Of a DNA stretch of 64,000 bases, positions 7,490-41,239 are shown in pieces. Source of the DNA: Roseibium sp. Sym1 (GTDB lineage: Bacteria > Pseudomonadota > Alphaproteobacteria > Rhizobiales > Stappiaceae); assembly GCF_027359675.1 (NCBI RefSeq), contig NZ_CP114789.1, positions 1-64,000 on the forward strand, in the 5' to 3' direction. Numbering within the stretch: the stretch's first letter is position 1; each line of letters starts with the position of its first letter. The position numbers were made by a program, and so were the translations under genes. Below the pieces are notes generated by a model that was not told the origin of the DNA, did no database searches, and saw only the letters and a list, made by a program, of their open reading frames with translations.

Positions 7490-9513
<2,024 letters not shown>

Positions 9514-9629
9514 TGCCATCGGCCATCATCCACGTGCGTTTGTCAATACAGAGATGCTTGGCTCGACGAGGAAGTGCTGTCACTTTGGCGGCAAAAGGTT
9601 GAAGGAAATGTGCCGGGTGACTCCAAAAA

Positions 9630-25814: not shown

Positions 25815-26973
25815 ATTCGCGCGGGGTCTGCTTTGCGTCCTGGGAGGCATTGCGACCGGCACAATCGGCTGGTCCGGCAACGTGCTTCTGCTGCCGGCCG
25901 GAATGCTGTTTCCGGCTTTCTGGGCCTATTCTCCGTCCCGATCCGTGGCGGCGCTGGTGGCAGCGGCGCACTTCCTCGGAGCCTCACGAGGCTTGCCGCA
26001 GGGCGCGTCCATATTCTTCGGATCCCAATATGCTATCGGAATCGGCCTTTGGTTCGCAGCGTCTCTCGTCTTTGTCGCCGTCTATTCCGCGCTGTGGTCG
26101 GGCCGATCCGGTTGGCCGCGAATGCTGCGGTATCTAATCGCAAGCGTTCTGATGAGCTTGCCACCCTTCGGAATCATGGGTTGGGCCAGCCCGATCACTG
26201 CGGCCGGCGTGCTCTTTCCGGGATGGAGCTGGTTCGGACTGGCAGCGACCGCGATCCTGTTGCTCATGATGACCACAAGCCTTTGGAGGATCGCGGTCCC
26301 GATTGTCGCCGGATGTGCTGCTTGGTCCGCCGCATTCTGGACGGACCCGAACGTAATTGAGGGTTGGACCGGCATCAACACCACTTTCCGCTATGAAGGG
26401 GCTGGACAGCACGCCGGTTATGAGCAGCAGCAGGAAACAATCGCCATGGTTCGCAAGGCGGCCGGGCAGGGGGCTAAGGTAGCGGTCCTGCCCGAGAGCG
26501 CTTTAGGACTATGGACTCCGACGACGGAACGGCTCTGGACAGATGCTTTGTCGGATCTGTCAGTGACCGTGATCGGGGGCGCCGCGGCCATTCAAAAGAG
26601 CGGCTATGACACGGTGATGGTGGAGATCGCGAAGTCGGACACGCGGATCCTCTATCGCGAACGCATGCCGGTCCCGGTTTCCATGTGGCAGCCTTGGCGC
26701 CGGCTCACAGGAGACGGCGGCGGAGCCAACGCCTACATATTCTACAATCCAGTTATGCCTGTCGCGGGCTATCGCGCAGCGCCGTTGATCTGCTACGAGC
26801 AGTTGATTATCTGGCCTGTCCTGCAATCCATGGCTTTGAACGCCGATATCATCGTGGCGATCGCCAACGGCTGGTGGACCGGCGGAAGCAACATTACCGC
26901 TATTCAGCGTGCCAGCGTCACAGCCTGGGCAAAGCTGTTCGATGTTCCGCTGGTGATCGCATTCAACGAGTGA
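25735..26973 (+). CDS. traB: TraB, conjugal transfer protein with nitrilase-like domain
   Basis: A 412-aa protein with about five N-terminal membrane helices (for example LLCVLGGIATGTIGWSGNV, IGLWFAASLVFVAVYSALW) and a C-terminal carbon-nitrogen hydrolase fold related to apolipoprotein N-acyltransferase (VAVLPESALGLW with the candidate Glu; APLICYEQLIIW with the candidate Cys). Ti-plasmid TraB has this layout and increases transfer frequency; its substrate is unknown. The ATG at 25735 overlaps the end of traF by 80 bases. Confidence 0.93.
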   Translation: MIQDILAPSRRAAFSAWREKCSPSSPKFARGLLCVLGGIATGTIGWSGNVLLLPAGMLFPAFWAYSPSRSVAALVAAAHFLGASRGLPQGASIFFGSQYAIGIGLWFAASLVFVAVYSALWSGRSGWPRMLRYLIASVLMSLPPFGIMGWASPITAAGVLFPGWSWFGLAATAILLLMMTTSLWRIAVPIVAGCAAWSAAFWTDPNVIEGWTGINTTFRYEGAGQHAGYEQQQETIAMVRKAAGQGAKVAVLPESALGLWTPTTERLWTDALSDLSVTVIGGAAAIQKSGYDTVMVEIAKSDTRILYRERMPVPVSMWQPWRRLTGDGGGANAYIFYNPVMPVAGYRAAPLICYEQLIIWPVLQSMALNADIIVAIANGWWTGGSNITAIQRASVTAWAKLFDVPLVIAFNE

Positions 26974-26977
26974 AGCC

Positions 26978-27604
26978 ATGATAGATGCCGCCCTGATAGA
27001 ACAGTGTGCCGACCCTTCCTTGACCCCTGCCATCGTTGAAGAGTTCATTGCGGCGGCAGGATCAGAAGATCCGTTGAACGTGACCGTTCGTGCCGGATCG
27101 AAGACGTTTCTGGTGCCGAAGGTCAAATCACCCGAAGAAGCGATGAAGCTGGTTCAGGATCACCTCGGCAAAGCCGTCGTGCGCGTCGGGCTCACGCAAT
27201 ACCCCGTTGGAATTGGCGTCACCGACAAGTCCCAGGTCACCGCGGATGTGTTCGACACCTGCAACAACATCAAAATCGGGACCGCGCTGTTCGCCCGCGT
27301 CTATCGGGTCGTGACGAAGTGGTACGGCACGCCGGTTCAAGAGGCGTTCGAAGATGCCATCGAGGCATACCAGACCGGGTATTTCGACGGTGAGTATGTG
27401 TTCACGGCAAAAGACCCAGGAGAGAGCGTTGATCTGGCTGCTCCGGACCCGGCCGCCTCAGTGGAGGGAGCGCCGGCGCCAGAGGCTGACAATGCGAGTC
27501 CGGACCCCAGGAATGAACTCCGGCAACAGCTATGGGCGCAGGATCCAAACAAGGCGGACATTGGCGTTGATCTGTCCGGAATAGGGGACTTCAACAGAGA
27601 ATGA
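26978..27604 (+). CDS. traH: TraH, conjugal transfer protein
   Basis: A 208-aa protein of the Ti-type TraH family: MIDAALIEQCADPSLTPAIV at the start, VRVGLTQYPVGIGV in the middle and an acidic Pro/Ala-rich tail. Four bases separate it from traB, making it the last classical gene of the traAFBH operon. The family is required or helpful in Ti transfer but its biochemical role is unknown. It ends by overlapping the nuclease gene start (ATGA). Confidence 0.93.
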   Translation: MIDAALIEQCADPSLTPAIVEEFIAAAGSEDPLNVTVRAGSKTFLVPKVKSPEEAMKLVQDHLGKAVVRVGLTQYPVGIGVTDKSQVTADVFDTCNNIKIGTALFARVYRVVTKWYGTPVQEAFEDAIEAYQTGYFDGEYVFTAKDPGESVDLAAPDPAASVEGAPAPEADNASPDPRNELRQQLWAQDPNKADIGVDLSGIGDFNRE

Positions 27605-27969
27605 CCAGCCACATCGTTGTTGCCGTGTATCTCTGTGCTGCGACATGCCAGCCACAGCAATTGCGCGTTTGGGACGGTGACAGTTTCCTGATCGGCATGA
27701 AGCACGGCTCGGAGCGTGTGCGGGTTCTCGGCCTGGATACCGCCGAGATCGACGGAAAATGTTCCTATGAAATCCAGATGGCAAAGAAGGCCAAGCGCCG
27801 GCTCGCCGAGTTGGCGAACGGACAACGCATTCAGATCCTCCGAAATGGCAAGGACAAGTATGGCCGCACCCTCGCAAGGGTCTTGGTCAACGGCAACGAC
27901 GTAAGCCAAATTCTCATCAACGAGGGGCTTGCCCGGCCGTGGCACGGACATCGCGAGCCGTGGTGCTAA
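27601..27969 (+). CDS. staphylococcal-nuclease-like (thermonuclease) protein
   Basis: A 122-aa SNase-fold protein: VWDGDSFLIG, RVRVLGLDTAEIDGKCSYEI (active-site Arg/Asp region) and GKDKYGRTLARVLVNG, the second active-site Arg box, followed by INEGLARPW. No cleavable signal peptide is evident although the first 14 residues are hydrophobic. It is translationally coupled to traH through an ATGA overlap and is a common appendage of Ti-like tra operons. Likely role: DNA or RNA cleavage during transfer, inferred. Confidence 0.9.
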   Translation: MTSHIVVAVYLCAATCQPQQLRVWDGDSFLIGMKHGSERVRVLGLDTAEIDGKCSYEIQMAKKAKRRLAELANGQRIQILRNGKDKYGRTLARVLVNGNDVSQILINEGLARPWHGHREPWC

Positions 27970-28190
27970 TCTTTCGGCTTCTTGATCCGTCGAAGAAACT
28001 CCATCGGATCCACGTTGAGCGCCAATGAAATCTGATAGATTGTAATAACGGTTGGGTTCCGTTTTCCGCGTTCCAGGCTGCTCAGATATTGCTGGCTGAT
28101 GCCACTGATCGCCGCAATTTCCTTTTGCGTCATATTCCGCTCATCTCTTAGGCGGGTGAGATTTTTTCCGACGAGGCGGCGCATGTCCAT
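27966..28190 (-). CDS. small XRE-family helix-turn-helix regulator
   Basis: A 74-aa protein that is almost entirely a Cro/C1-type helix-turn-helix: NLTRLRDERNMTQKEIAAIS followed by GISQQYLSSLERGKRNPTVI. Its 3' end overlaps the convergent nuclease gene by 4 bases. It may repress the tra operon, itself, or act as a controller protein for the restriction-modification-like genes upstream on the same strand, though a 314-base gap separates them. Size matches R-M C-proteins and plasmid regulators alike. Confidence 0.88.
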   Translation of the reverse strand: MDMRRLVGKNLTRLRDERNMTQKEIAAISGISQQYLSSLERGKRNPTVITIYQISLALNVDPMEFLRRIKKPKD

Positions 28191-28504
28191 GCGCTTTTGA
28201 TTGGCAGCTTACAAAATTAGAGTTTATCAACTTCTCTATTCGTCAAACATGGGGATTGACGGGCGACCGTATTAAGAGACTTTTGCGCCTGCGTCGCCAT
28301 TATTCACGTCATCATGTCGGCTTTCCGCAAATCTGTTTATTAAATGGCCTAGTTTTCAAGTTTCGTGCGAAATGTATTTGAACAACTTCGTCACGAATAT
28401 ACATAGATGGCAAACGAAATGTTTTTGATATTTTCAGCCACCGCTCCTATACTTATCCGCTAGTTGATTCACGTCTATTCGATGGTGAAATTGACCCGAG
28501 ACGT
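28191..28504. other. AT-rich intergenic region before the XRE regulator
   Basis: No gene seen. The stretch is much more AT-rich than its surroundings and should hold the promoter of the XRE gene and the end of the nuclease transcript. It may also mark the left edge of the 28.5-36.5 kb island. Confidence 0.4.
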
Positions 28505-29221
28505 TCACATCTCGACCCACAAATGACGAAGCTCAATTCTGTTTAGGTTGAGTTCTCGTTCGTGTTCGGATGATAGGACGGCGATACGCAGATTGGTGTC
28601 GTGGCTGACTAGATTCAGACGATCATCAAGACTCCAACCGGAAATACCAACACGAGATAGGGCGCGAATCCAGAAATCGAGTCGGTTGATCCAAGACACT
28701 ATGCCGCCCGTCTGCACATAAGCGATCATGACTGCCTGTTCGTGCGCCGCGCCGTGCAATCCCGCCTTGAAGCGCTGTACGCCACCAGTGCTGCCGTTCG
28801 CAACGCGCAAATACTCACGCTTGTCTCGGTTCTTGCCCTTTGGTGTGGGAAGTCGTTTGCATTCAATTGGAAGAAGCGTATCAAAATCGTCATGCCGGCG
28901 TCCTTCAATCCAGATGACCTCTCCCGCTGGCGCTGCAACGAGATCAATTCGGCGCGAAAGCTTCGTTTCGTCGGGCTCTTCGATGCGGAACTGGAGAACG
29001 TCCCAGCCGGGAGATTTTCGGGTGGTGCCGTTAAGGTGAGCGCAGAGTTGCGAGGTTAGTTGTGTTTCAGAATCCGCAGTTGGTCGACCACCACGATCCC
29101 GCCAGCTCGGCAATTCTTCCAGAATGAAAGTTATCAGTTGATGAAGCCAAGTCTTCGGACGATGTAGGTCGGGTGATAACCCCCCACTCTGAACATTAAC
29201 TCCGTCAGAATCCGCCAGCAT
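28505..29221 (-). CDS. PD-(D/E)XK-like nuclease partner of the methylase
   Basis: A 238-aa soluble protein. The pattern KLSRRIDLVAAP followed by DTLLPIECKRLP fits the PD-(D/E)XK nuclease core (Asp ... Glu-x-Lys). Its ATG comes straight after the stop of the 950-aa methylase gene (TGAATG), so the two are translationally coupled. I infer the DNA-cutting subunit of a split restriction-modification-like system. The fold is inferred from a short motif; no specificity can be given. Confidence 0.7.
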   Translation of the reverse strand: MLADSDGVNVQSGGLSPDLHRPKTWLHQLITFILEELPSWRDRGGRPTADSETQLTSQLCAHLNGTTRKSPGWDVLQFRIEEPDETKLSRRIDLVAAPAGEVIWIEGRRHDDFDTLLPIECKRLPTPKGKNRDKREYLRVANGSTGGVQRFKAGLHGAAHEQAVMIAYVQTGGIVSWINRLDFWIRALSRVGISGWSLDDRLNLVSHDTNLRIAVLSSEHERELNLNRIELRHLWVEM

Positions 29222-32074
29222 TCAAAATCCTTGCGCCCGAAGATCGGCCAATACGTCGTCGCTATCGCGCAATGCCACCGAACGTAGCCAGTAACGAAGA
29301 CGATCCGGCTTCAGAAGGAAAATAAAATGCCCGTCATATATTCTTGCGATGCGTGTAATGGAAACCGACGTGCCCTTTTGTTCCCTTAGTAGAACATCAA
29401 TCTTGTCGTGCAGCGTATCTTCGCCGTCCCAATCGATCACCCCAGTCCCAAACACGAAGGGCTGGCAGACGATTCCTGACCAGCGCCGCGGTGTCAGCGA
29501 TATCAGCGGCTTTTCTTGATAAACTGTGTTGATCTGCTTGCAGAACAAACGTGCGAAGTCGTCAAGTACCTGGCAGGCATCCTCGCGTAAAAGACAAGAC
29601 TCGTTGCCCTTGCGAACGAATTCTCGATACTGGTGGACGATATCCTCGGCAACAATTCGCTCATTGTCGCTGAGGTCGAGATCGCCATCCTCAGGAAATG
29701 GCAAAGCAAGCACATCAGCTCCGGCAATATTAGTCGCCTTCTGGGTGAAGAGCTTCGTGCTGATCCCAGCTGCATAGGCGCGCAACGCGATCGACTCAGT
29801 TTTGAGCCAGCGTGCAACTACCTCTAGATCGTCGCGGCCAGCCTTGGCGAATCCGACGATCTGGTTCTTAAAGGTGAGATACTCTTCAGACCAAATCGCA
29901 TTTGGCAAATCTTCATGTTCGCGGACCAAGAGCATAGGCGGAGTGAAGAGTTCGGCCGAGCGAGGGCCCTCAATCGGCTTGTCTGGCACTACAGTGATTT
30001 GGCTTTTGTCGATGCCGGTCACGGAAAGAGCGGTCGAGGGCAGAAGTGGCTTGCCGATCAGGTGATCAGAGGGCCGGGATACACCCTTCTGGCCCTCAAC
30101 GAACCCCTCGCGAACATGCCACCCTCGTTCAGCGGCATGCTGCTTAAGCGTACGATATTGCTTGAGCCTTTTGACGAGGCTGTAAGCGCGCGCCCCGCCC
30201 AAGAGACCCGAACGCCAAATTTCAGGTCCGGGTTCCGCGAGAACGTCACTGCGCGGTAGCCAATGCAAATCATAATAATCGATATCGAAACCTTGTTCGG
30301 CATCGGCACGACCAGCGCGACGAAAAACAGCGTGCAAGATTCTGCGGTTATTGGGTGGTTCAGCCGCATCCGCAACGACGGCGACAATTTTAGTGTCTGC
30401 GCCACCTTTGCTAAACAATCCACGAATCGACACAAAATCGAGGATTTCGCGCACATCCCAACGTGAAAAAAAGGCAGTGCGAACAGGTGCGGAGCTGGCG
30501 TTGTAGATCAGGTTATACTGTTGAAGCATGGAGAGCGTACCCCCAGGAACGAGAAGTTCCATGGCTTCATGCAAGAACAGGTACGCAATCTGCTTGTCTG
30601 CCCCAGTACCGATAGCTTCTGTGAAGCGCTGATAGCTTCGGATTGCACCTTGCGTCTTGAGGGCGGATACGAAGGGTGGATTACCAACAACGACGCCGAT
30701 AGGGCCAACAATGCGTTTTTTCTCCTTTGCTTCAAAAAAGCAGGATTCTATTAGTGTACGGTCGTTTAGCTTTGGGAAAAGCTGAACACTTGCGCGGATA
30801 TCTTCAGGCTCCAGCGCGTCGCATAGCGCCAGGCACAAGCTGAATGCTGCTAGCTCGATCGCGCCACCTTCGACATCAACCCCGCGAAGGCGTTCGACTA
30901 ATGCGCGTAACACATGGACACCAGGTTTAGCCCAGCCGTTTCGGCTTCTCCAGTGCAGCACGAGGCGCTTGTAAGCCTCGACCAAGAAAATACCAGAGCC
31001 ACATGCAGGATCGAGGATGAGTTCGTCTCGGTCGATCACCCGGTCAAGTCGTTGCCAGCTCAATGCCTCATCAAGCATGAGGCGGACAAGCGAAGGAGGT
31101 GTATAGACGGAGCTATCGGTGTCGGAAACGAATAGCTGATAGATATGGCTGATAACCTCGACGGGTAAATCGCGGAAAGAGTAGAGCGCCCAGAGGTTGA
31201 GCTGCCCTCCTGCTTCAACCCGCGCCTCTATCAGCGTGCTGAAACCTTGAAGTTCCGTGCTGTTCTCAAGTGCGGCGCGGTCCTCGTCGTGAATTCTGAA
31301 AATGTGGCCGTTGAAGCGCATTTCAAGAGATCGAAGAAGTTGTACAAGCGCAGGACCGTCCTCAAGAACATGAAAAAATCTCGTGGCACCTTCAGTAAAT
31401 TGCCCGAAAAAGTCGGCTGGGAGAACGCCGCGTTCTTCCAGATAAGCAATGAGGAGTGAAAGGATAAGAAGGCGGCGTCGAAGCCCTGCGTTCAGTAGAC
31501 CACTACTCTTCAGTCTAGAATGGAGGCCACTAACGGCATCGACAAGCAGGCGATGTGCCGATTTCGACGCGGATAGAAGTAGCTTGCAAGCTGCTGGATC
31601 ATCCCAAAGCGTGCTGTTTCGCAGTCTTTCTGCGTCCCACCAAGCTTCTTTTGCAACTATACGTGAAGCGAGTCCCAGTGTTTTAACTGGTTTGCAGACT
31701 AGATCTCCCGAAGCCGAAATGAAATCGGCCTTGTGGGCGCATCGGAAGAGCTGCACCAGGCCTGGTATCCGCCGATAAAGGAGTGGAACGCCGCCCCAAC
31801 TCCAGATTCGTTTGTGCAACTCCGCAAACGCCGGATTATTAGCAGGCCCATCATCGACGAATAAGAACGCTTGCGGTGCCCCCGGCCTGCCTTGTTTCCC
31901 CGCTTCGAAAAACACCGCGTAGGCGCCATATGAGGCGGCCTTCTCCATGGTCACAACTTCTTCGGGCGGACGGCCATCAGGCAAATATCCTGCGACCCGA
32001 ACTAGACCATCAATCTGGACACTGCTGACATCCAGATGCTCAATCCAAGCCGTTTTCGCGCCGCTGACGGACAT
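29222..32074 (-). CDS. large N6-adenine DNA methylase (Eco57I/type IIG-like)
   Basis: A 950-aa protein. The N-terminal 300 residues are helical and unassigned. The methylase core has motif I LILDPACGSGIFLVEAYKRL and motif IV GVVVGNPPFVSALKTQ (N-P-P-F for adenine), in the order seen in Eco57I-type enzymes. The last roughly 350 residues resemble a target-recognition and helical C-terminus (YLTFKNQIVGFAKAG, ATNIAGADVLALPFPEDGDL). Unlike classical type IIG enzymes it lacks an obvious nuclease motif of its own; the nuclease appears to be encoded by the next gene. Lower GC than the tra genes, suggesting acquisition. Confidence 0.88.
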   Translation of the reverse strand: MSVSGAKTAWIEHLDVSSVQIDGLVRVAGYLPDGRPPEEVVTMEKAASYGAYAVFFEAGKQGRPGAPQAFLFVDDGPANNPAFAELHKRIWSWGGVPLLYRRIPGLVQLFRCAHKADFISASGDLVCKPVKTLGLASRIVAKEAWWDAERLRNSTLWDDPAACKLLLSASKSAHRLLVDAVSGLHSRLKSSGLLNAGLRRRLLILSLLIAYLEERGVLPADFFGQFTEGATRFFHVLEDGPALVQLLRSLEMRFNGHIFRIHDEDRAALENSTELQGFSTLIEARVEAGGQLNLWALYSFRDLPVEVISHIYQLFVSDTDSSVYTPPSLVRLMLDEALSWQRLDRVIDRDELILDPACGSGIFLVEAYKRLVLHWRSRNGWAKPGVHVLRALVERLRGVDVEGGAIELAAFSLCLALCDALEPEDIRASVQLFPKLNDRTLIESCFFEAKEKKRIVGPIGVVVGNPPFVSALKTQGAIRSYQRFTEAIGTGADKQIAYLFLHEAMELLVPGGTLSMLQQYNLIYNASSAPVRTAFFSRWDVREILDFVSIRGLFSKGGADTKIVAVVADAAEPPNNRRILHAVFRRAGRADAEQGFDIDYYDLHWLPRSDVLAEPGPEIWRSGLLGGARAYSLVKRLKQYRTLKQHAAERGWHVREGFVEGQKGVSRPSDHLIGKPLLPSTALSVTGIDKSQITVVPDKPIEGPRSAELFTPPMLLVREHEDLPNAIWSEEYLTFKNQIVGFAKAGRDDLEVVARWLKTESIALRAYAAGISTKLFTQKATNIAGADVLALPFPEDGDLDLSDNERIVAEDIVHQYREFVRKGNESCLLREDACQVLDDFARLFCKQINTVYQEKPLISLTPRRWSGIVCQPFVFGTGVIDWDGEDTLHDKIDVLLREQKGTSVSITRIARIYDGHFIFLLKPDRLRYWLRSVALRDSDDVLADLRAQGF

Positions 32075-32101
32075 ACTATATTCCGCTTTTGATCGGCTGC
32101 A

Positions 32102-32296
32102 TCAGGACTTACGATTGTCTTTGCTGAGTTCAAATCCTTCACGAAGCAAGTCAACCATCGTCATACCCTGGGCAACGGCATAACCTTTAAATGCCTTCTT
32201 GAAGTCGGCCGGAACCTTGAAATTCAGAGTTTCGAGCTTCTCTATGGAGTGACGGCTTGTAGAATTCAGCGCGTCCTTCGTTGTGTTGATCGCCAT
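32102..32296 (-). CDS. small ribbon-helix-helix-like protein
   Basis: A 64-aa protein whose C-terminal half (TLNFKVPADFKKAFKGYAVA then GMTMVDLLREGFEL) has the strand-helix-helix pattern of ParG/CopG-type DNA-binding or partition proteins. It lies 27 bases upstream of the methylase gene, same strand, so it may regulate the restriction-modification operon or belong to a plasmid stability module. The ATG at 32296 (MAINTTKDAL) is chosen; a longer frame to 32359 lacks a better ribosome-binding site. Confidence 0.65.
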   Translation of the reverse strand: MAINTTKDALNSTSRHSIEKLETLNFKVPADFKKAFKGYAVAQGMTMVDLLREGFELSKDNRKS

Positions 32297-32718
32297 GACC
32301 ACTTTCCTCTGCTCACCGCAAGCAGAGGAACGAATAACAGAATTCTGTATGGCCAGCAATCGGGCAATACAGAATGGCTGAAACAGCAGCGGAACTCTTT
32401 GTCGCGTCTGGATGGATGTGATTAAGGCGCGTAGCGGCCCTCTTCCTCAAAGCAGTCGCACCACATGTCGCGCTAAAACGTGTCACATGACAATCTCCGT
32501 GACGATACTGTTCATGATCTACTAGTTTGCTCGCTAGCTGGTCCGTGTCTGGCGGTGAGAATATCCCGTTTGGATACATGCTTCTCTGCGTGGTCGATGC
32601 GAGGTCGCTTCGAAGGAACATCGCAGCATAGAGTGATGGTGGTTGATGTTTCCTCGCGGCTAACTTGTGTTTTCCTGTGTTGCAGTTCACTGTCCGACTG
32701 TGGGTTTGGGAGGTACAC
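32297..32718. other. divergent promoter region between the R-M-like and radical SAM operons
   Basis: No convincing gene. It separates two divergent transcription units and should contain both promoters. A good ribosome-binding site (GGGAGGT at 32708-32714) precedes the radical SAM gene. Confidence 0.45.
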
Positions 32719-33855
32719 GTGACAAAAGCAGAATTCTTAAATTTGAAGTCCGTGCGCCCTGCGCCGGATGATCTACCTCGAAGCCTTCGGAATTTCATTG
32801 ACTATCGAAAGTCGGGCTTAAGTCTCAATCACATCGTCGGGTGTCCTCTGGATTGTGGCTACTGCGTACGCCACTTGTTCGAGAATTTTTCGATGAAGCG
32901 ACCCCACCTCATCGTCGATGACGAAATCGCCGTGCAGGAACTCATCGGCCATTGGGCGTTTCGTGCTCACACGACTCCGATTCAGATTTTCAACCGAGCT
33001 ACGGACCCCTTCCTGCCTGGTGTGAAGACGCATCTTTTCAAGACCCTCGAAGCTCTGGATAGGCGAGGGCTCAGCAATCCAGTCCTGGTTATCACCCGAT
33101 GGCGAATTGATCGATCAGACGTTGAGCGTCTTGAAGCTCTCAAGAACCTGCAACTGACGATCTTGGTCACCTGGTCAGGGATCCATGACGAACGTGTGGA
33201 GCCAGTACCGTCGGCGATAGCCGCAGGAAGCTTGGAAGTGCTGGCTAAATCGGCGTCTCGTGTGAAGAAGATCCTCTACTGGCGCCCGATTATCTCGGGT
33301 CTAAATGATACGATCGACCACTTCGCGTCTGCACGCCGGCTTTCTGAGTTAGCGGATGCGACGGTTTTCACGGGCCTCTTTTACCGGAAAGAAATCCAGG
33401 CCTATTTTCGAGAAGCCGGGGTGCCTGACCTTTACACGGATTTGGCCCGACGAAAGATTTTACCACGTGATACCGAAAGTCGAATTTTGGCCCATTTCGA
33501 AGGGCGCCCGATCTTCCGCAAAACGTCATGCGGGGTCGCCTTCGCCCACGGGACACCAGATTTTAATGGTCATTTCGGCATCAGCGAAATTTGTAGCATC
33601 TGTCCCGAGGGCCAACGTGAGATCTGCAGTAAGCATCACCATAAACCTGACACTGAGGCTGTTCGAAGCCTCGCTCGTAGCGTCTCGCTGGCGGACCTAA
33701 ATGGAATCGAGATTTCTGATCGTCGGATCGTAGTCAGTGGCAGCACCGAAGCGCAACGCTACTTCATGCAGCATACATTAAATTTCCAAGTCCACGACCG
33801 GGCGCAGCCGCATAGGCAGCATCGGCATGGGCGTGCGGAGATCGGATGGGAATGA
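32719..33855 (+). CDS. radical SAM protein (SPL-like) of a putative defence operon
   Basis: A 378-aa protein with the radical SAM cluster motif CPLDCGYC at residues 42-49 (C-x3-C-x2-C), then a TIM-barrel-like body (PIQIFNRATDPFLPG, PVLVITRWRIDR, KKILYWRPIISGLND). The C-terminus has a further Cys set (SCGVAF, EICSICPEGQREICSK) that could hold an auxiliary Fe-S cluster. The overall style recalls spore-photoproduct-lyase-like radical SAM proteins. The start is GTG at 32719 with GGGAGGT in front. The next gene overlaps it by 10 bases. Substrate unknown; by context it may act on a nucleotide or nucleic acid. Confidence 0.85.
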   Translation: MTKAEFLNLKSVRPAPDDLPRSLRNFIDYRKSGLSLNHIVGCPLDCGYCVRHLFENFSMKRPHLIVDDEIAVQELIGHWAFRAHTTPIQIFNRATDPFLPGVKTHLFKTLEALDRRGLSNPVLVITRWRIDRSDVERLEALKNLQLTILVTWSGIHDERVEPVPSAIAAGSLEVLAKSASRVKKILYWRPIISGLNDTIDHFASARRLSELADATVFTGLFYRKEIQAYFREAGVPDLYTDLARRKILPRDTESRILAHFEGRPIFRKTSCGVAFAHGTPDFNGHFGISEICSICPEGQREICSKHHHKPDTEAVRSLARSVSLADLNGIEISDRRIVVSGSTEAQRYFMQHTLNFQVHDRAQPHRQHRHGRAEIGWE

Positions 33856-34436
33856 TTTGGGAAAAGACCTGGGTCGTCGACGTGGAAGGCAACGGAGCTA
33901 CCCCTCCAGAGATTGTCGAGATCGCGTTGCTGGAACTCGTTGAACTCCGTCCCACCGGCCGAGAATTTCACTGGCTGATCAAGCCTGAGCAGCCAATCGC
34001 CGCGGTCGTGACTAGGATTCACGGCCTCTCCGACGATGTCGTAGCCGGTGCGCCGAGTATCGACGACATTGCTGACGACGTCGTCACATGGACTGACGGA
34101 TGTGTGATCGTCGGTCACAACGTCCGGGTAGAGCTTGATGCTATAAGCCGATCGATTCCAGGATGGCAGCCATCCGCTGCAATCGATACTTTGAAGCTCG
34201 CGCGTTCCCTCCGCCCGGGCCTTTCCTCATACAGTTTGGAAAACCTCGGCGCCGCTCTCAAGTTGACGACCGAGGCAAAGCGGCAAACAGGCTTGAAACA
34301 CCATTCCGCTCAATTTGACGTTGCGCTGACGGCCTTGTTGTTCGTTGAACTTCTAGGGCCGCTCGATCGCGCCGATCGTGATCTCCGTGTACGGGAAGCC
34401 GATATACTTTTCAAATCGCAGGAGAGCTTTTTGTGA
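33846..34436 (+). CDS. DnaQ-like 3'-5' exonuclease
   Basis: A 196-aa DEDD-family exonuclease: WVVDVEGNG supplies the Asp12-x-Glu14 pair of ExoI, TRIHGLSDDVVAGAP and VIVGHNVRVELDAISR give ExoII, and GLKHHSAQFDVALTALL gives the ExoIII His/Asp. This is the fold of DNA polymerase epsilon-type proofreaders and oligoribonucleases. It overlaps the radical SAM gene by 10 bases and the following gene by 4, so it is made as part of the four-gene operon. Likely role: trimming or degrading a nucleic acid in the same pathway, inferred. Confidence 0.9.
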   Translation: MGMIWEKTWVVDVEGNGATPPEIVEIALLELVELRPTGREFHWLIKPEQPIAAVVTRIHGLSDDVVAGAPSIDDIADDVVTWTDGCVIVGHNVRVELDAISRSIPGWQPSAAIDTLKLARSLRPGLSSYSLENLGAALKLTTEAKRQTGLKHHSAQFDVALTALLFVELLGPLDRADRDLRVREADILFKSQESFL

Positions 34437-35017
34437 GCGCGAGGAAAGTTAAAATCGGAATAGCCGGCACACATTCGACCGGAAAGTCAACTTTCCTGGA
34501 GCAACTGGACGCTCGCCTATCGACCGAAGGGGTGACCATCGGTCGGGTAGATGACCTCGCTACGGCGGCACGGGACCGCGGCTTTCCGATCCTAACCCAG
34601 CACAATTTCGAAAGCACACTATGGATCATGGCGGAGGGCATGAGGCAGGAAGCTGAAGCTGCCTTGCACTGCGAGGTCGTTCTTGTCGATCGTCCTGTTT
34701 TTGACGCGTTAGGCTATCTTTATGCCGCCCTCGAAATTTCGGACCGGTCTCTACCTGATCGTCAGCTCAACGAACTTCGCTCGATCGCTCTTGCTCATGC
34801 GGGTGACTATGATCTGCTTGTCATGACAGAACTCGATCCTGCAATTGGACTTGGTGAAGGACGGGATGGAAATCAGGAGTTTCGGGTCGCAGCCGCTAAC
34901 AAGATCCGCGCGATCGCCGACGAGGCGGCTTTCGAATCTCTCATCCTGACCTCCACGAATAGCAATGAAGTCTTGGATCAAGTTCTCAAAAGCATCCGCA
35001 CGCGCTTGGCAGAATAG
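34433..35017 (+). CDS. P-loop AAA_28/NadR-like kinase or ATPase
   Basis: A 194-aa P-loop protein: Walker A GIAGTHSTGKSTFLEQL, an acidic strand VVLVDRPVFDALGYLYAALE (Asp-Arg pair as in nucleotide or nicotinamide-riboside kinases), and DLLVMTELDPAIGLGEGR. The size and motifs fit small nucleoside/NadR-like kinases rather than large AAA machines. GTG start at 34433 overlapping the exonuclease stop (GTGA), with GGAGAG upstream. Possibly phosphorylates a nucleoside-like substrate or alarm molecule; this is inference. Confidence 0.82.
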   Translation: MSARKVKIGIAGTHSTGKSTFLEQLDARLSTEGVTIGRVDDLATAARDRGFPILTQHNFESTLWIMAEGMRQEAEAALHCEVVLVDRPVFDALGYLYAALEISDRSLPDRQLNELRSIALAHAGDYDLLVMTELDPAIGLGEGRDGNQEFRVAAANKIRAIADEAAFESLILTSTNSNEVLDQVLKSIRTRLAE

Positions 35018-35081
35018 GCGTGGCATGTTCGCCTAATGCAGTTGGTTACTACAATTCCGGAAATATCATGTTGGGGGGAAA

Positions 35082-36512
35082 ATGCCGGAAATTTTGAACA
35101 AGGTTATCAAGGATCCGATCCACGGGTTTATCGATTTTTATGGAGAACGCGAAAATGAGCTCAAAAACTTGCTCTCTGATCCGTTCTTCCAGCGCCTGCG
35201 TCGTGTCAAGCAACTCGGCTTTTCCGATTACGTCTTTCCCTCGGCCGCTCACTCTCGCTTCTCACATTCACTTGGCGTTTACAAAATTGCAAAACGAATG
35301 CTGATGGTTATAGAGCCCGAAGGGGCTGACGGGAAATGGTCGCCCAAGGCCGAAGCTTGCCTGGCAGCCGCGTTGCTGCATGACGTCGGCCACGGCATGT
35401 TTAGCCACGCTTTCGAGAAGGCCATGGAATTCTTTCTGGCGCGCAACTCGCTCGAAGGCGAACGCGCGGAGAGCTTCGAAGCTGCCGTCGATCATGAGTC
35501 TGTTAGCCGAAAGATTATCACCGACTCTTCGATCGGCACGGCGCTAACTAAGTTTGGTGGTTCTGAATTTCCCGGCATGGTCCGTGACATCATTAAGAAG
35601 AAGGATGAAAACTGCGTCTATACGTCCATCGTTTCAAGTCAGCTTGACGCCGACAGGCTCGATTACGCGAAAAGGGACGCCTACTTCGCCGGTGTGTCCT
35701 CTGGAGGAATCGACCTTGATTGGCTCTTACGGAATTTTAAGCCAGGTCAGAACGGTGATGCTCAATTTCTCTATGTCGATAGCAAGGCCTATATCTCGCT
35801 CGAACAGTTCACAGTCACGTTGTTCCAGCTCTATCCAACCATCTATCTGCACAAGAAGACAAGGGGTCTGGAGTTCATGTTCGCCCAGCTCTTGAGCAAG
35901 GTTTTTCAGCTGATCGACTCAAATGAGGTGACAGCCACAGGTCTTTCGGAGAACCACCCATTTATTCGATTTTTTCGTGAGCCGGACAATCTCGACCACG
36001 CGCACCTTCTCGACGATACGCTCTTTTGGGGATCCCTCCATCTATTGCGCGAAGCGACTGATCCTTCTGTTAGCGACGTCGCGACGCGACTCTCGGACCG
36101 CCGGATTTTGCCAATGGTCGATATCTGGAAGGTAGCCGACGAAGCACTTGCCGCACGCGTCGGAACCAGCAAACTGACTGCACTATCACGCGTTCAGCTG
36201 ATCGAAGGAATCTGTAAGGCTGTTGCCGAGAAGCTGCAGGCAGATTCCTCAATCTGGAGCGATAGCTGCTATTACGACACGTATAATCGGCCAATCTATA
36301 AGACGAGAGGTGTCGTCGGCGGCCATCCCCAGCAGATCAATGTGAGCGTCGGAGGCAAGATCTTAGATATTGCCTCCATCTCTCCTGTCGTCGCAAGCGC
36401 CGCATCTTTCAACATCCATCGCATTTACTATGACGATAAAAAGTCCCCGAAAGTGGATAACTTGAAGAGAGCAATTAGGGAGTTGATCGAGGCAGAGCTG
36501 AAAAACTTGTAA
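35082..36512 (+). CDS. HD-domain phosphohydrolase (dNTPase-like)
   Basis: A 476-aa protein that opens like SAMHD1/dGTPase-family enzymes: LNKVIKDPIHGFIDFY, RLRRVKQLGFSDYVFP, AAHSRFSHSLGVYKIAKRML and ALLHDVGHGMFSHAFE, giving the H...HD...D metal site, then SSQLDADRLDYAKRDAYFAG. HD proteins of this type hydrolyse dNTPs or nucleotide signals, an activity used in phage defence. It follows the kinase-like gene after 64 bases, with GGGGGG as ribosome-binding site, and is probably the last gene of the operon. Confidence 0.92.
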   Translation: MPEILNKVIKDPIHGFIDFYGERENELKNLLSDPFFQRLRRVKQLGFSDYVFPSAAHSRFSHSLGVYKIAKRMLMVIEPEGADGKWSPKAEACLAAALLHDVGHGMFSHAFEKAMEFFLARNSLEGERAESFEAAVDHESVSRKIITDSSIGTALTKFGGSEFPGMVRDIIKKKDENCVYTSIVSSQLDADRLDYAKRDAYFAGVSSGGIDLDWLLRNFKPGQNGDAQFLYVDSKAYISLEQFTVTLFQLYPTIYLHKKTRGLEFMFAQLLSKVFQLIDSNEVTATGLSENHPFIRFFREPDNLDHAHLLDDTLFWGSLHLLREATDPSVSDVATRLSDRRILPMVDIWKVADEALAARVGTSKLTALSRVQLIEGICKAVAEKLQADSSIWSDSCYYDTYNRPIYKTRGVVGGHPQQINVSVGGKILDIASISPVVASAASFNIHRIYYDDKKSPKVDNLKRAIRELIEAELKNL

Positions 36513-36879
36513 AGCCAGGCTCGGCTGTTGAACCGCTGACAAGTTCCTCCCGAGAAATACTTTGATCGGTCAGCAGGCGTGTTTCAGGCTCTGTAGGCGA
36601 TGTCTTCATTTAAAAGAATGCGCGACGTTGAATGTAACGTTATAACTGTCAAAGCTGTTTAGAAACGCGACGTCGCTAGCCCGATAGAAATGCGACAGTC
36701 AGACTTTGCCGCTCGCTGAAGCGGCCAGCCCCCGATCCGACCGGCTGGGCCGGGTTGCAAGGGAGGTGAGGGGGCGGGTGATTGAGGACCTATTCGGACT
36801 TTGTCAGCCCGAACTCGTAATGCGGGCCATCTTGAAAGATTTTGAAGGTGCATAGCATCTTGGAATGAACGATTTGAGT
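36513..36879. other. intergenic region with IS end-like tandem repeats
   Basis: No gene supported. At 36654-36672 and 36679-36697 lie two tandem 19-mers (the second is GCCCGATAGAAATGCGACA) that match, in inverse orientation, the two 19-mers at the right end of the rve transposase element (16/19 and 14/19). This is the likely left end of that element or of a relative. Confidence 0.6.
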
Positions 36880-37725
36880 TCATTCGTAGAATTCTCTTTG
36901 CCCAACTCTGCAATCGGCTGAAGTCCAATCTGATGCCGAAACGGTCACTAAATGTGGTCCGGCCGAAGCGACTTCCAAAATGAGCTTGCGCTTAATCCCT
37001 GCAACGAGACCGTCCGTGTTGCGAACTGGAAAGGCGAATGCGCCAGGACCGCCAATAACACAGCTCTCAAAATAGCGCATGAGTTCCACCTCACCGGATA
37101 TCTCCGACGGAGCGGGATTGAGAAGCAAAGGCAGCGCGTTGATCGTAATCCCCTCAGCGATCACGGCGTCACGAGTTGGCACGATGTATGGCCCAGTAGT
37201 ATTCGGCCCGTCGCCGGAAACATCGATGACTTTGCGCATGGCCTGATAGGACGATTTCGAGAGGAGCGATGCCGAAAAAAGCAATGCTTTGGAAATGGAA
37301 GTGTCGGTTCCTCCTGTCAGCGGCTTGGCCGCAAGGTCATCTGCGAAGCGCTGCGCTGTTTCCGAATTGTCGATTATCTGCCATGGCATAGTGAGAACTT
37401 GAAAGTCGGGTCCGGCCCATTCCACATAGGCAACGGCAATCCTGCCGGTCGCTCCAAGTTGGATCGCTGTTACAAAAAGCGGGTCTTTAATCGCAGCGAC
37501 ATATCCCGAGCGCTGGATTTCGAGCTCTTCACGGCTCATCGAACTCGATACGTCCACCGCCAAAACCAATTGCACATCCACCGGAATTGGTTCTGATTGA
37601 GCCCTCTGTGACTGGACAGACAGGACTGCACCTAGGGCAACGGTTAATGCGGCTGTTCGCGCCTGATAGAGGCGGTGTTTTTGCTTTTCTTTTCTGGCGG
37701 CTGTTCCTCTGGCGCGGTCGGTCAT
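36880..37725 (-). CDS. DUF1194 von Willebrand factor A-like secreted protein
   Basis: A 281-aa protein. After a basic start there is a hydrophobic stretch (AALTVALGAVLSVQSQRAQS) suggesting a signal peptide, then a VWA fold with the metal-binding MIDAS motif VLAVDVSSSMSREEL (D-x-S-x-S), PLTGGTDTSISKAL and VIDVSGDGPNT. DUF1194 proteins are common in alphaproteobacteria and are presumed periplasmic adhesion or interaction proteins of unknown role. It is transcribed towards the candidate IS end. Confidence 0.9.
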   Translation of the reverse strand: MTDRARGTAARKEKQKHRLYQARTAALTVALGAVLSVQSQRAQSEPIPVDVQLVLAVDVSSSMSREELEIQRSGYVAAIKDPLFVTAIQLGATGRIAVAYVEWAGPDFQVLTMPWQIIDNSETAQRFADDLAAKPLTGGTDTSISKALLFSASLLSKSSYQAMRKVIDVSGDGPNTTGPYIVPTRDAVIAEGITINALPLLLNPAPSEISGEVELMRYFESCVIGGPGAFAFPVRNTDGLVAGIKRKLILEVASAGPHLVTVSASDWTSADCRVGQREFYE

Positions 37726-37752
37726 AGCGATGCTCCAAGCTGTGTCTGAATG

Positions 37753-38133
37753 CTATGTGGAAAAGTAACCGTGCAAGAACCAAATCGTAAGAGCAAATGC
37801 CACAACCCAGCATGCGATGATAATCGCGGCAGCGATACGGCTAACCGGTCGTTCGGCGGCAGCGGCTGCTAGTTCCCGGTGCTCCGCCATGATCTCGGGT
37901 GGAATGAGCTTAATGACGAAATAAATACCGAGCGGCAGAAGCACGACATCATCCAGGTAACCAAGTACGGGTATGAAGTCGGGGATTAGGTCAATGGGGG
38001 AAAGGGCATAGCCAGCAACGACAATGGCGAGGGCCTTCGCGTACCACGGAACACGCGGATCTCGGCTCGCGCTGCAAAGAGCAGCGACGTCGCGCTTTAT
38101 GATCCGTGCCCAATCGCGAAGGTTCCAGCTCAT
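37753..38133 (-). CDS. YkvA/DUF1232 family membrane protein
   Basis: A 126-aa protein with the DUF1232 signature VPWYAKALAIVVAGYALSPI followed by DLIPDFIPVLGYLDDVVLLP, and a C-terminal membrane helix (IAAAIIIACWVVAFALTIW). Function unknown; members are small inner-membrane proteins. Its ATG overlaps the stop of a short upstream frame (ATGA), indicating coupling. Confidence 0.9.
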   Translation of the reverse strand: MSWNLRDWARIIKRDVAALCSASRDPRVPWYAKALAIVVAGYALSPIDLIPDFIPVLGYLDDVVLLPLGIYFVIKLIPPEIMAEHRELAAAAAERPVSRIAAAIIIACWVVAFALTIWFLHGYFST

Positions 38134-38213
38134 TCGGTATTCTTGCTCGCCTGTGCTTTCTGAACGAGCGCATCCATATTATTCAGATAGCTGATTATGC
38201 GTTCATCATCCAT
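38130..38213 (-). pseudogene. short upstream frame, possibly the end of a frameshifted membrane protein
   Basis: From the ATG at 38213 a 27-aa peptide (MDDERIISYLNNMDALVQKA...) ends at the DUF1232 start through an ATGA overlap. The same frame is open upstream to about 38285 and reads LALVLIVLVSPVGAQLRYW, a membrane-helix-like stretch. An ATG just upstream (MNKLRKS) is in another frame; removal of one base would join them into a protein of about 57 aa. It is either a real small protein with a cryptic start or a frameshifted gene. Confidence 0.35.
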
Positions 38214-38474
38214 ATTGCGAGTTGACCAATATCTCAACTGCGCGCCGACTGGACTAACGAGGACGATCAGGACCAGTGCAAGACTTTCGAAGCTTATTCA
38301 TAGCAAAGACGATCCAGCTGAAACTGAATGAAAATCTCAACGAAGATACCAGGCCGTCCCGTTTTCTGCGCCCGGCTGGGGCGGTTGTCCACCTGTGCTC
38401 AATACAGAAAATAGTGCATTGCAATATCCAGCTGCGCGTAGCATCACTTAGAGGATGGGACCGATATTGGCCGA

Positions 38475-39899
38475 TCACTCCGCCGCTTCTATCCTCGCCA
38501 GCGCCTTCTTCCTTCTAGCATTCACTTCCGGATCATTCATGAAATCCGATCGGCGTCCGGGCTTGCGGCCACGCTTCTGATAGCCGTTGCTCACGCTGCC
38601 GTCCGGGATGCCGAACATGTGGTCCTTCTGACCGGCACGAGAGGGGCCATGCCGACGCCGGTGCTGCTCCCGGCCTTCCTGCATCTCGGCCACAACCGAC
38701 AGAATGTCGTCCAACCGCTTGTTCTCAACAACCCTGGTTCTGTGAATTGACCGCAAGGTATCGAATGTTCTGTACGGGAGAAGGGTGCCCTCGTGCATGA
38801 TCTCCAGGCGGCCGTCGGGATAGTCGCAGACGATCACCTTCTGGCGGGGCAGTATCTTGGCGTAATCCGTCGGATCCAGAATGAAAATCACCTTCTCATA
38901 GCGTAGCGTCAGAGCCTGTGACACCGTGCGGATCTCCTTCCGGCACATGGCGCCATCCAGGTTCTCATGATCGGCCAAGGGGCGATGCATGTCCTTCGGA
39001 TTGCGCGGCTCCTTGCCAAAACGGTGGTTAAAATCCGCGATGAATTCCGGAGCGAAAGCGTTGGCCTCTTCAAGCGTGTTGATACCGCGCAAACGCAATT
39101 CCTTCACCAGCCGGTCCTGAAGAGTTCTGTTGGCGCGCTCGACCCGGCCTTTGGCTTGCGGGGTGTTGGCGCAGACGATGTCGATGTTAAGCTCGTAAAG
39201 AGCGCGGCCAAATTGCGTTAGCCCGCTGGTCCGGTCCATCTCGGACGCATGTGTGGTCCGGAAAACCCCGTGTTTGTCGCTGTAGAATGCAAGCGGCTTT
39301 CCCCATTGTTCCAGATAGGCCTTAGTTGCCAGGAGGTAGTCGAAGGTGTTCTCGGATAACGCAAAACGCAGATGTAGCAGCTTGCCGGTCGCGTCGTCGA
39401 TGTAGACGAGCAAGGCACATTTGGGGCCGCGGTTCTCGAGCCACCAGTGATGCGAACCATCGATCTGGACGAGTTCACCGAGGCAATCGCGCCGGCCGCG
39501 CGGCTGAAAGATCCGCTGCTTGCGTTCGCGCCGCGACTTCCAAATACCAGCTTCCGTCATCCATTGGCGCAAGGTCTCTTTGCCGACGGCAATCTGATGA
39601 AGCTCAAGCAGCTTCTCACGGGCCAGGGTTGGACCGAAGTCGTGATAATGCTCGCGCACCAGGTCGAGGACGGCATTGCGAAACTCGTCGCTGTGACGGC
39701 GGTTGCTGGGACGGCCACGCTTGCCGGAAACAAGACCAGCGGCACCGTCACGCTCGTAAGCCTGCAAGAGCCGATGGACCTGGCTCCGGCTGAGGCTCAG
39801 AAGCCTGGCAGCGTCAACGATACTCAATCTTCGATCGCGGATCTTCTGGATGGCTTCCAGCCGGTTTAGTTCATGTTGCGACATGGTGATCAAAGACAT
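38475..39899 (-). CDS. ISNCY-type rve (DDE) transposase
   Basis: A 474-aa transposase: N-terminal helix-turn-helix (RLSIVDAARLLSLSRSQVHR, EAYERDGAAGL-type linker, SGKRGRPSNRR) and an rve integrase core with VQIDGSHHWW (first Asp), PLAFYSDKHGVFRTTH (second Asp) and NTPQAKGRVERANRTLQDRL (Glu). The C-terminus is basic and ends GRKPGRRSDFMNDPEVNARR. The layout matches the transposases usually filed as ISNCY. I use the ATG at 39899 (MSLITMSQ). The gene appears complete. Confidence 0.9.
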   Translation of the reverse strand: MSLITMSQHELNRLEAIQKIRDRRLSIVDAARLLSLSRSQVHRLLQAYERDGAAGLVSGKRGRPSNRRHSDEFRNAVLDLVREHYHDFGPTLAREKLLELHQIAVGKETLRQWMTEAGIWKSRRERKQRIFQPRGRRDCLGELVQIDGSHHWWLENRGPKCALLVYIDDATGKLLHLRFALSENTFDYLLATKAYLEQWGKPLAFYSDKHGVFRTTHASEMDRTSGLTQFGRALYELNIDIVCANTPQAKGRVERANRTLQDRLVKELRLRGINTLEEANAFAPEFIADFNHRFGKEPRNPKDMHRPLADHENLDGAMCRKEIRTVSQALTLRYEKVIFILDPTDYAKILPRQKVIVCDYPDGRLEIMHEGTLLPYRTFDTLRSIHRTRVVENKRLDDILSVVAEMQEGREQHRRRHGPSRAGQKDHMFGIPDGSVSNGYQKRGRKPGRRSDFMNDPEVNARRKKALARIEAAE

Positions 39900-40040
39900 T
39901 GCAGCTCCGTCAGCGCTTAGGCGTGCCGAAGCCAGTCTTCCTTCCAACGTTGATATTGACCAGCGTCAGACGGACGGGAGGTGTCGCATCTCTAACTGGC
40001 CCAAGTGTCGCATTACTAAATGGCTTGTGAGCGATACTTG

Positions 40041-41129
40041 AAGTGCGACTTCTGCGGATTGCAAGGGTAGGGGGCGTTCACTCATTGCGCCAGCATCTTC
40101 TCCCTGAAGACTTCGGCCGGCGTCTTCCAACCAAGGCATTTCCGGGGCGTCGCATTGAGCCGGTCACAGATCCCTTTCAACTCAAGATCGGTGACCCGGC
40201 TCATATTGAGTTTGCGGGGAAGCCATCGTCGGGCACGTCGGTTGGTGTTTTCCACGGTGCCTTTCTGCCAGGGGGCAGATGGATCACAGAACCAGGTTTG
40301 TGTACCGATTTCCGCTTGAAGATGCGGCCAGGCCACAAACTCGGTTCCTCGATCGAACGTGATGGATTTTCGGGAACGGATTGGCAGGTGGCGGATCGCA
40401 TCGATGACCTTGCCAAGCACCAAATGTGTTCTTCTGTTGTCATTCTTTAAAAGCAAGGTGAACCGGGTGACGCGTTCCACCAGGGACGTAACGTTGCCAG
40501 AACCAAAGTGCTGTTTGAACAGCATTAAATCACCTTCCCAGTGCCCGAACTCCTGCCGATGTGCCACGGCATCTGGCCGGAACAAGATGCTGACGTCACG
40601 ATGGAATTTGGGTGGCAGGCGCTTTCTCGCTCGTCTGGGCTTTCGAGACTTTCGATGTGTCGGCAAGTACCACCACAGCTCCTGGGCAAGGCCTTCCTTC
40701 GAATAGATATAACGGTAGATCGTTTCCTGGCAGACCCGGTGGGAGGCGCCTTCGTATCTCATGCGTCCGGCAATCTGTTCCGGCGTCCAGCCATCCTTGA
40801 TGCGATCGGTCACAAGATGACGCAGATCCGAATGCTTGATCAGTTTTCGTTTTCGTGACCGACGCGTGGCGCATTCCTGGTGGGCCGCCACAGCAAAATA
40901 GCCGACGATGTCCGGCAACTGTTCATCTTGAAAATGGTTGCGTTTCAATTCTCGAAAAATCGTTGATCGGTGCCGCCCAAGGATCTTCGCCATTCGGCAA
41001 GGTGACACTTTCGCCTGGCGCCAGCGTTCAATCTTGCGGCGCTCCTCCAGCGTCAGGTGGCTGTATTTTGATCCCATGACACAATCCTCCTGTTTGATAA
41101 CCTATTGGTTTCAAACAGAAGTCGCACTT
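40041..41129 (-). mobile_element. complete IS30-family element
   Basis: Bounded by a perfect 14-bp inverted repeat: AAGTGCGACTTCTG at 40041-40054 and CAGAAGTCGCACTT at 41116-41129, enclosing one intact transposase. Total length about 1089 bp, normal for IS30. It lies 16 bases from the right end repeats of the preceding element. Confidence 0.9.
40082..41077 (-). CDS. IS30-family transposase
   Basis: A 331-aa protein: helix-turn-helix (HLTLEERRKIERWRQ, SPCRMAKILGRHRSTIFREL), the IS30 signature DGWTPEQIAGRM...QETIYRYIYS, and the DDE core GHWEGDLMLF (Asp), SITFDRGTEFVAWPHL (Asp) and DPSAPWQKGTVENTNRRAR (Glu). It occupies nearly the whole element and appears intact, so the IS may still move. Confidence 0.97.
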   Translation of the reverse strand: MGSKYSHLTLEERRKIERWRQAKVSPCRMAKILGRHRSTIFRELKRNHFQDEQLPDIVGYFAVAAHQECATRRSRKRKLIKHSDLRHLVTDRIKDGWTPEQIAGRMRYEGASHRVCQETIYRYIYSKEGLAQELWWYLPTHRKSRKPRRARKRLPPKFHRDVSILFRPDAVAHRQEFGHWEGDLMLFKQHFGSGNVTSLVERVTRFTLLLKNDNRRTHLVLGKVIDAIRHLPIRSRKSITFDRGTEFVAWPHLQAEIGTQTWFCDPSAPWQKGTVENTNRRARRWLPRKLNMSRVTDLELKGICDRLNATPRKCLGWKTPAEVFREKMLAQ

Positions 41130-41239
41130 GGGAATAGCGCGCACCCTGCTATAGGGGCTGCACCGATAATAGTAATTATGGAACTTCAGCCGTAGAAAGC
41201 GCCGTATGACACCAATTCTTCAACTTAGTACTCGTTGCA

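Follow-up and report, generated by a model that had tools for sequence, protein, structure and literature searches.

To our knowledge, viperins are the only radical S-adenosylmethionine (SAM) enzymes that make antiviral nucleotides. According to an excerpt of PMC10058120, viperin converts cytidine triphosphate (CTP) into the chain terminator 3'-deoxy-3',4'-didehydro-CTP (ddhCTP), and the human viperin gene adjoins the gene of the kinase CMPK2; an excerpt of PMC9415739 reports that the coronavirus nsp14 exonuclease can remove ddhCMP, the monophosphate, from RNA ends. Cytidine monophosphate (CMP) is also modified by the 5-hydroxymethylase MilA, which serves mildiomycin (excerpt of PMC5175136), and mildiomycin and bacimethrin both have hydroxymethyl-CMP as a precursor (excerpts of PMC5175136 and PMC4081090). 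Here we describe a four-gene operon at positions 32719-36512 of the window, that is, the whole 64,000-nucleotide stretch analysed (positions 1 to 64,000 of contig NZ_CP114789.1 of Roseibium sp. Sym1). The conserved unit consists of the first three genes, encoding a radical SAM protein, a DEDDh 3'-5' exonuclease and a P-loop kinase; the fourth gene, for an HD phosphohydrolase, is optional. The operon is a real, unnamed, mobile family with this three-gene core, strong signs of nucleotide chemistry and a conflict setting. Because the operon unites three activities of the kinds seen in the viperin precedents, namely a radical SAM protein, a nucleotide kinase and a 3'-5' exonuclease, we tentatively propose a mobile antiphage system, viperin-like in logic without being a viperin, which would make a modified nucleotide triphosphate directed against phage polymerases.

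All four genes lie on the forward strand. The radical SAM gene (32719-33855; 378 amino acids, GTG start) overlaps by 10 bases the gene of an exonuclease of the ExoX/DnaQ type (33846-34436; RNase_T, 3e-16), which overlaps by four bases the gene of a nucleoside or nucleotide kinase (34433-35017; Pfam AAA_28, 1.5e-10; motifs GTHSTGKS and DRP); a gap of 64 bases separates the latter from the gene of a SAMHD1/EF1143-like HD phosphohydrolase (35082-36512; Pfam HD, 8.7e-12). A first-pass annotation of this DNA had described four open reading frames (ORFs) linked by overlaps and a short gap and had assigned them to a radical SAM protein, a DEDD exonuclease, a NadR-like kinase and an HD protein resembling deoxynucleoside triphosphate hydrolases (dNTPases); the layout was borne out, and motifs and family matches agree with all four assignments. 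The window forms the first part of a 120,881-bp contig in a 7.26-Mb genome, and plasmid pTHAF35_b of Labrenzia sp. THAF35 matches its positions 25000-41183 (about 16 kb) at 100% identity. The G+C content of the operon (53.1%) is below that of the window (58.8%), which fits acquired DNA.

Searches for relatives gave 23 plasmid records (at least 48% identity), four Hyphomicrobiales genome contigs, nine viral-collection contigs and four further whole-genome loci. These 40 loci include the plasmid matches H1-H23, after 12 weaker or partial plasmid matches had been dropped; a fifth whole-genome match, G1121 (98%, residues 1-345, one internal stop), was excluded as truncated. The set is partly redundant: six of the Labrenzia/Roseibium plasmid records are almost the same, another is a truncated copy from Roseibium algicola, in which an IS30 element occupies the place of the remaining operon genes, and three Rhizobium records differ little from one another. 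The hosts are Alphaproteobacteria, Actinomycetota and one cyanobacterium; those of the viral-collection contigs were assigned as alpha-like or actinobacterial-type by similarity and gene content. Beside the radical SAM gene, the exonuclease gene is present at 38 of the 40 loci, the kinase gene at 37 and the complete trio at 36. Among 25 loci selected for holding all three genes, the three proteins diverge in step (correlation of pairwise identities, r 0.965-0.973, reached by none of 2000 permutations), and the genes overlap at each trio junction in 24; the Nocardia radical SAM gene, which has an in-frame stop, was counted among the 40 and left out of this test and of the alignment A1 described below. 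At all four Hyphomicrobiales genome loci the four genes occur in the same order with 76-87% identity, in flanks lacking the neighbours of the window except for a methyltransferase relative (28%) at L004. As the order is kept amid different flanks, the four-gene arrangement exceeds chance. The co-occurrence of all four genes, which the first-pass annotation had proposed to count, thus holds for the trio (36/40) and only in part for the HD gene (15/40).

The radical SAM gene is rare, being found in one of 397 genomes of the order, one of 398 of the phylum, two of 385 of the class and five of 87 of the family, with the genome of the window included each time (single-sequence searches for order and family, profile searches for phylum and class; E-value cut-offs 1e-5 to 1e-20). 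Three queries retrieved no match in 50,697 phage records, and a core phage function was rejected. Prophage genes are present near the operon in all four actinobacterial-type viral-collection contigs scanned, out of seven (L027, L029 and L031 lay outside the scan): a major head and a major tail protein at L028, a portal at L030, a tape measure protein and an endolysin at L032, and an endolysin and a tail protein at L033. Since prophage genes lie nearby and the phage genomes have no copy, cargo of temperate elements fits the distribution best.

The genes accompanying the trio vary. Eleven of the 23 plasmids and all four genome contigs carry the HD gene, and it was found in none of the nine viral contigs and the four whole-genome loci; altogether it was not found at 25 of the 40 loci, including every actinobacterial-type one. 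All 11 plasmid records with an HD relative of at least 60% identity also carry the radical SAM gene. An aldo/keto reductase gene lies downstream in Gluconobacter, five of six Streptomyces plasmids (at L010 as fragments only), Nocardia, seven of nine viral contigs and one of four whole-genome loci; in some copies, for example Mesorhizobium L015 and Agrobacterium L020, both the HD and the aldo/keto reductase gene are missing. A MazG-like protein (weak Pfam matches only) is encoded downstream at L019 and L029. Genes of a thymidylate-synthase homologue and a nucleoside diphosphate (NDP) kinase, doubled in some cases, head the operon in all six Streptomyces plasmids and in seven of nine viral contigs; the gene table of the Nocardia plasmid holds no such pair.

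The closest structures to the HD protein are 2o6i (3.7e-44), which we take to be EF1143, and SAMHD1 (about 1e-19), both dNTPases; PADLOC matched it to a dGTPase at 1e-6, and it scores 21 of the 400 bits required by the antiphage dGTPase cut-off. Bacteria are known to counter phages by depleting dNTPs, and the HD protein could be the effector, with the other three genes making or destroying its activating nucleotide. This explanation appears improbable, because the trio is mostly kept at the 25 of 40 loci where no HD gene was found; the HD protein was accordingly rejected as core effector. The first-pass annotation had suggested that the operon could modify or deplete nucleotides, or make and destroy a nucleotide signal, during phage infection; this reading is partly supported.

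The thymidylate-synthase homologue of the actinobacterial-type operons matches the CMP 5-hydroxymethylase MilA at 7e-73 and the best true thymidylate synthase at 8e-14. The MilA residues Lys133, Cys155 (the nucleophile), Asp186 and His216 are kept in all 13 operon copies, and position 176 is Ala in 11 of them and Gly in two. Lys133 and Ala176 set the ribose preference of MilA and Asp186 is tied to cytosine, according to an excerpt of PMC5175136; the equivalents of Lys133, Ala176, Asp186 and Cys155 place the actinobacterial-type partner with the CMP 5-hydroxymethylases. The MilA match and the retained residues point to a cytidine ribonucleotide as the starting compound, so that the actinobacterial-type pathway very probably begins with such a nucleotide, perhaps read slightly differently. 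We infer that the radical SAM protein acts on the same compound as the MilA-like enzyme.

The radical SAM protein of the window has the motif CPLDCGYC at residues 42-49 and exactly four more Cys residues (271, 292, 295 and 303); all seven are invariant among the 15 sequences of alignment A1, and the first-pass observation of this motif with an extra Cys set is thereby upheld. CxxxCxxC on a partial TIM barrel places the protein in the radical SAM superfamily, and Cys271, Cys292, Cys295 and Cys303 probably form a second Fe-S site. The public annotation places the start at a Met inside the protein (residue 59 in the window), 3' of the CxxxCxxC motif (32719-32892 in the window; similarly L007:12001-13137, L024:10001-11137 and L015:7575-8696), and thereby leaves out the very motif that defines the family; sequence conservation speaks for the upstream start. 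No Pfam family matched the radical SAM protein at E<=0.01 and no PADLOC model matched it; no viperin-named model of NCBIfam or PADLOC matched it at E<=0.01. A profile of A1 found no viperin chain in PDB at E<=1, though PDB holds viperin chains, and likewise missed all other radical SAM chains; therefore, this result shows divergence of the radical SAM protein only. Viperin membership was rejected, as no sequence relation was detected in NCBIfam, PADLOC or the PDB profile search. Structure favoured no single subfamily among the families compared.

One PA0069-type, SplB-like protein was matched weakly by the radical SAM protein (hhalign probability 69), and no SplB-like family in NCBIfam matched the window protein itself. 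A nucleic-acid repair or modification module, in which the radical SAM protein would have damaged or modified DNA as its substrate and ends would be processed by the exonuclease and kinase, could account for such a likeness. We regard it as rather unlikely: this is a weak match to an unspecific fold, the NDP kinase and the CMP-hydroxymethylase-like partner work on free nucleotides, and the kinase has the fold of small-molecule kinases, with the Walker A motif and kinase fold of the NadR/thymidylate kinase-like type (PADLOC: VakA at 0.006). DEDDh enzymes carry the signature D-E, D/E and HxAxxD, and the exonuclease has it: D12, E14, H153 and D158 are invariant in 17 of 17 aligned rows, and position 96, Glu in the window protein, is Glu in 10 and Asp in seven. 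Its profile has ExoX 4fzx as the best match (1.5e-26), and PADLOC reported a generic DEDDh protein and the exonuclease part of PDC-S48.

Defence genes were counted at 15 alphaproteobacterial or alpha-like loci (the window, L002-L005, L008, L009, L015, L020-L022, L025, L026, L053 and L054), leaving aside L007, L024 and L041 as members of the plasmid group of the window, L055 as similar to L054 and L056 as a 6.4-kb contig. By this rough count, based on PADLOC models, record annotation and a scan of selected flank proteins, the operon has defence genes nearby at 10 of 15 loci, in agreement with the co-location that the first-pass annotation had suggested looking for. A Type IIG methyltransferase gene neighbours the operon in the window and another is present at L004; cyclic-oligonucleotide-based antiphage signalling systems (CBASS) consisting of a phospholipase, a DncV-like cyclase and an E1-E2 protein lie upstream of the operon at three rhizobial loci (L008:7111-11176, L002:4552-8620 and L004:3444-7497), suggesting that CBASS and the operon move together. 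The other loci have a type II methyltransferase (L005), an antiphage dGTPase and a TIR protein (Agrobacterium L020), Shedu and an ABC-three-component system (L021, L022), SIR2-HerA, ending 21 bases 5' of the radical SAM gene (L025), and a DpdJ/Mokosh-like helicase with a methyltransferase (L026). Toxin-antitoxin genes at L009 and L015 were not counted; ZorA matches of a large upstream protein at L053 were dropped as coiled-coil likeness (Pfam: apolipoprotein), and GajB matches of a UvrD helicase at L054 were not counted. On five plasmids, a named antiphage system was found in four of five operon stretches and in none of five roughly opposite control stretches, one of which has an AbiEi-type antitoxin. 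Judged from this genomic context, a defence role is somewhat favoured.

L002, L003 and L022 share an opposite-strand set downstream of the operon: a helix-turn-helix/ImmA regulator, a QueC-like protein and small proteins. At L002 the regulator is capP/RmrA-like and the QueC-like protein matches QatC; at L022 a small protein is annotated as PIN. This set is possibly another defence unit.

A nucleoside antibiotic or antimetabolite cluster, in which a secreted product would act on competitors and the producer would owe its immunity to the exonuclease, HD and MazG-like proteins, would explain the MilA relative, given the role of MilA and hydroxymethyl-CMP in mildiomycin and bacimethrin. Further signs in its favour come from the Streptomyces plasmids: at four of six copies the operon is preceded by DUF6415 genes, which bear the name 'natural product biosynthesis', and the exonuclease-kinase tail also follows a MurA-like enolpyruvyltransferase and a related radical SAM protein (L035, L036), which recalls PolA and PolH of polyoxin, or other genes (L037). 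L035 keeps a 69-residue remnant of the C-terminus of the operon's radical SAM protein before the exonuclease and looks like a head-gene swap. The exonuclease and kinase may thus work behind a different nucleotide-making head, in keeping with an antidote and a phosphorylation step and also with an antibiotic cluster. Nevertheless, we consider this origin unlikely: the neighbours tabulated for the copies on the Gluconobacter plasmid and the six Streptomyces plasmids include no phosphatase or efflux pump (the PLSDB gene table being incomplete), apart from one ABC-cassette protein about 2.5 kb downstream at L019; an NDP kinase would yield a triphosphate, which is retained inside the cell; and many alphaproteobacterial copies lie beside defence genes. 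In a Priestia thymidylate-synthase-type cluster, a HAD hydrolase and an efflux pump are both present.

Other nucleoside-type clusters were seen in passing. A class II aldolase, a MurA-like enzyme and a short radical SAM protein are encoded at L035:3868-10765, L036:2868-9846 and L023:5685-9182, with a glycosyltransferase at L035 and L036; these Streptomyces plasmid clusters probably represent an undescribed nucleoside pathway. A nucleoside 2-deoxyribosyltransferase, a CMP-hydroxymethylase-like protein and a SAM methyltransferase are encoded at L040:5527-9075 (Priestia megaterium) and L038:6977-9228 (Streptomyces microflavus), an arrangement that resembles bacimethrin biosynthesis.

The antiphage system that we propose would work as follows. 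In actinobacterial-type operons the MilA-like enzyme would first turn CMP into 5-hydroxymethyl-CMP; the radical SAM protein would alter the nucleotide, most likely a cytidine nucleotide; and the kinase of the NadR/thymidylate-kinase fold, together with an NDP kinase (operon-borne in actinobacterial types, a housekeeping enzyme elsewhere), would raise it to the triphosphate. A phage polymerase would incorporate the modified triphosphate and then stall; the DEDDh exonuclease would strip the analogue from host 3' ends as self-protection, and the HD, MazG-like or aldo/keto reductase proteins may complete the product or cleanse the pool. The operon, the shared inheritance of its genes, the family assignments, the active-site residues and the genomic contexts are observations; product, antiviral action and the self-protective role of the exonuclease are all predictions, and the chemistry as a whole is possible at best. 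More speculative still, and on present evidence doubtful, is the idea of a second independent invention of bacterial nucleotide-analogue immunity, in which a modified (hydroxymethyl-)cytidine nucleotide would be the product of a new radical SAM family and the operon's own proofreading exonuclease would be the antidote, forming a small-molecule toxin-antidote system against phage polymerases.

Several observations weigh against the antiphage proposal, the DUF6415 genes and the alternative partners of exonuclease and kinase on Streptomyces plasmids among them. The MilA ribose contact Tyr218 is kept in none of the 13 operon copies (Asn in 12, Gly in one) and is kept in the comparators L038 and L040 from other clusters. 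Alphaproteobacterial copies lack the CMP-hydroxymethylase and the NDP kinase, so that the substrate there is conjecture. Lipoyl synthase, pyruvate formate-lyase activase, viperin and spore photoproduct lyase score alike against the model of the radical SAM protein. The exonuclease is nearest to DNA enzymes (ExoX, PolC and DnaQ), and a CMP-derived analogue would threaten RNA first; moreover, the Nostoc plasmid copy has no exonuclease, and no kinase was detected in the divergent viral-collection copies L032 and L033. No countable defence gene was found among selected flank proteins at five of the 15 loci (L003, L009, L015, L053 and L054), and the context control comprises five stretches only. 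If the proposal is true, the antiviral-nucleotide strategy arose more than once and new chain-terminating nucleotides are on offer; occurrence in three phyla, on plasmids and on prophage-like elements provides several test systems, and the built-in kinase and exonuclease make host self-protection by the exonuclease directly testable.

Outside the conserved unit, the window encodes on the reverse strand the Type IIG/Eco57I-like N6-adenine methyltransferase (29222-32074; family library match), abutted by a protein (28505-29221) that matched nothing at E<=0.01 in Pfam, NCBIfam or PADLOC and could be a restriction partner from a new family. Hence, of the restriction-modification-like pair noted at first pass, the methyltransferase half was recovered and the partner half was not. 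The pair was rejected as a member of the unit, as the methyltransferase was not found at L002, L003 and L005 and has only the distant relative at L004. A small ORF upstream of the methyltransferase gene (32102-32359, reverse strand; no Pfam match) has a product that by eye resembles ribbon-helix-helix proteins and may be a control protein. Promoter and terminator scans gave one promoter-like match and four terminator-like ones, no more than in shuffled sequence; a repeat scan gave no direct repeats and two weak inverted pairs. No tRNA was found in the window, and the single RNA family match was a thiamine pyrophosphate riboswitch distant from the operon (9390-9515, reverse strand; 70.8 bits).

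As a whole, the set matched no named antiphage system among the PADLOC defence models, and no description of such a system was found in the open-licence PubMed Central literature, in accordance with the first-pass statement that no named system with this set was known. The fourth gene shares the HD domain with SAMHD1/EF1143 dNTPases and antiphage dGTPases; in contrast to these, it is an optional part of an operon, and its product scores far below the dGTPase cut-off. The radical SAM protein of the MurA-like Streptomyces clusters is a relative (hhalign probability 99) that shares the C-terminal Cys set, and the exonuclease-kinase tail recurs at L035 and L036, but the head enzymes of these clusters differ and their radical SAM protein is only 23% identical. 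PolH has its motif at 225-232 (excerpt of PMC5365060), unlike the short radical SAM proteins described here. With the MilA/BcmA pathways of mildiomycin and bacimethrin, actinobacterial-type operons share a MilA relative with most CMP-type residues; they differ in the loss of Tyr218 and in a kinase and NDP kinase joined by a radical SAM protein and an exonuclease. From viperin and the prokaryotic viperins (SAND) with a CMPK2-type kinase, the operon is set apart by the extra four-Cys set at the C-terminus of its radical SAM protein, whose family profile matches no viperin chain in PDB, by its dedicated exonuclease and by its variable HD, reductase or MilA-like/NDP kinase partners. What it has in common with them is a radical SAM protein beside a thymidylate-kinase-like kinase, a likely cytidine nucleotide and a defence setting.

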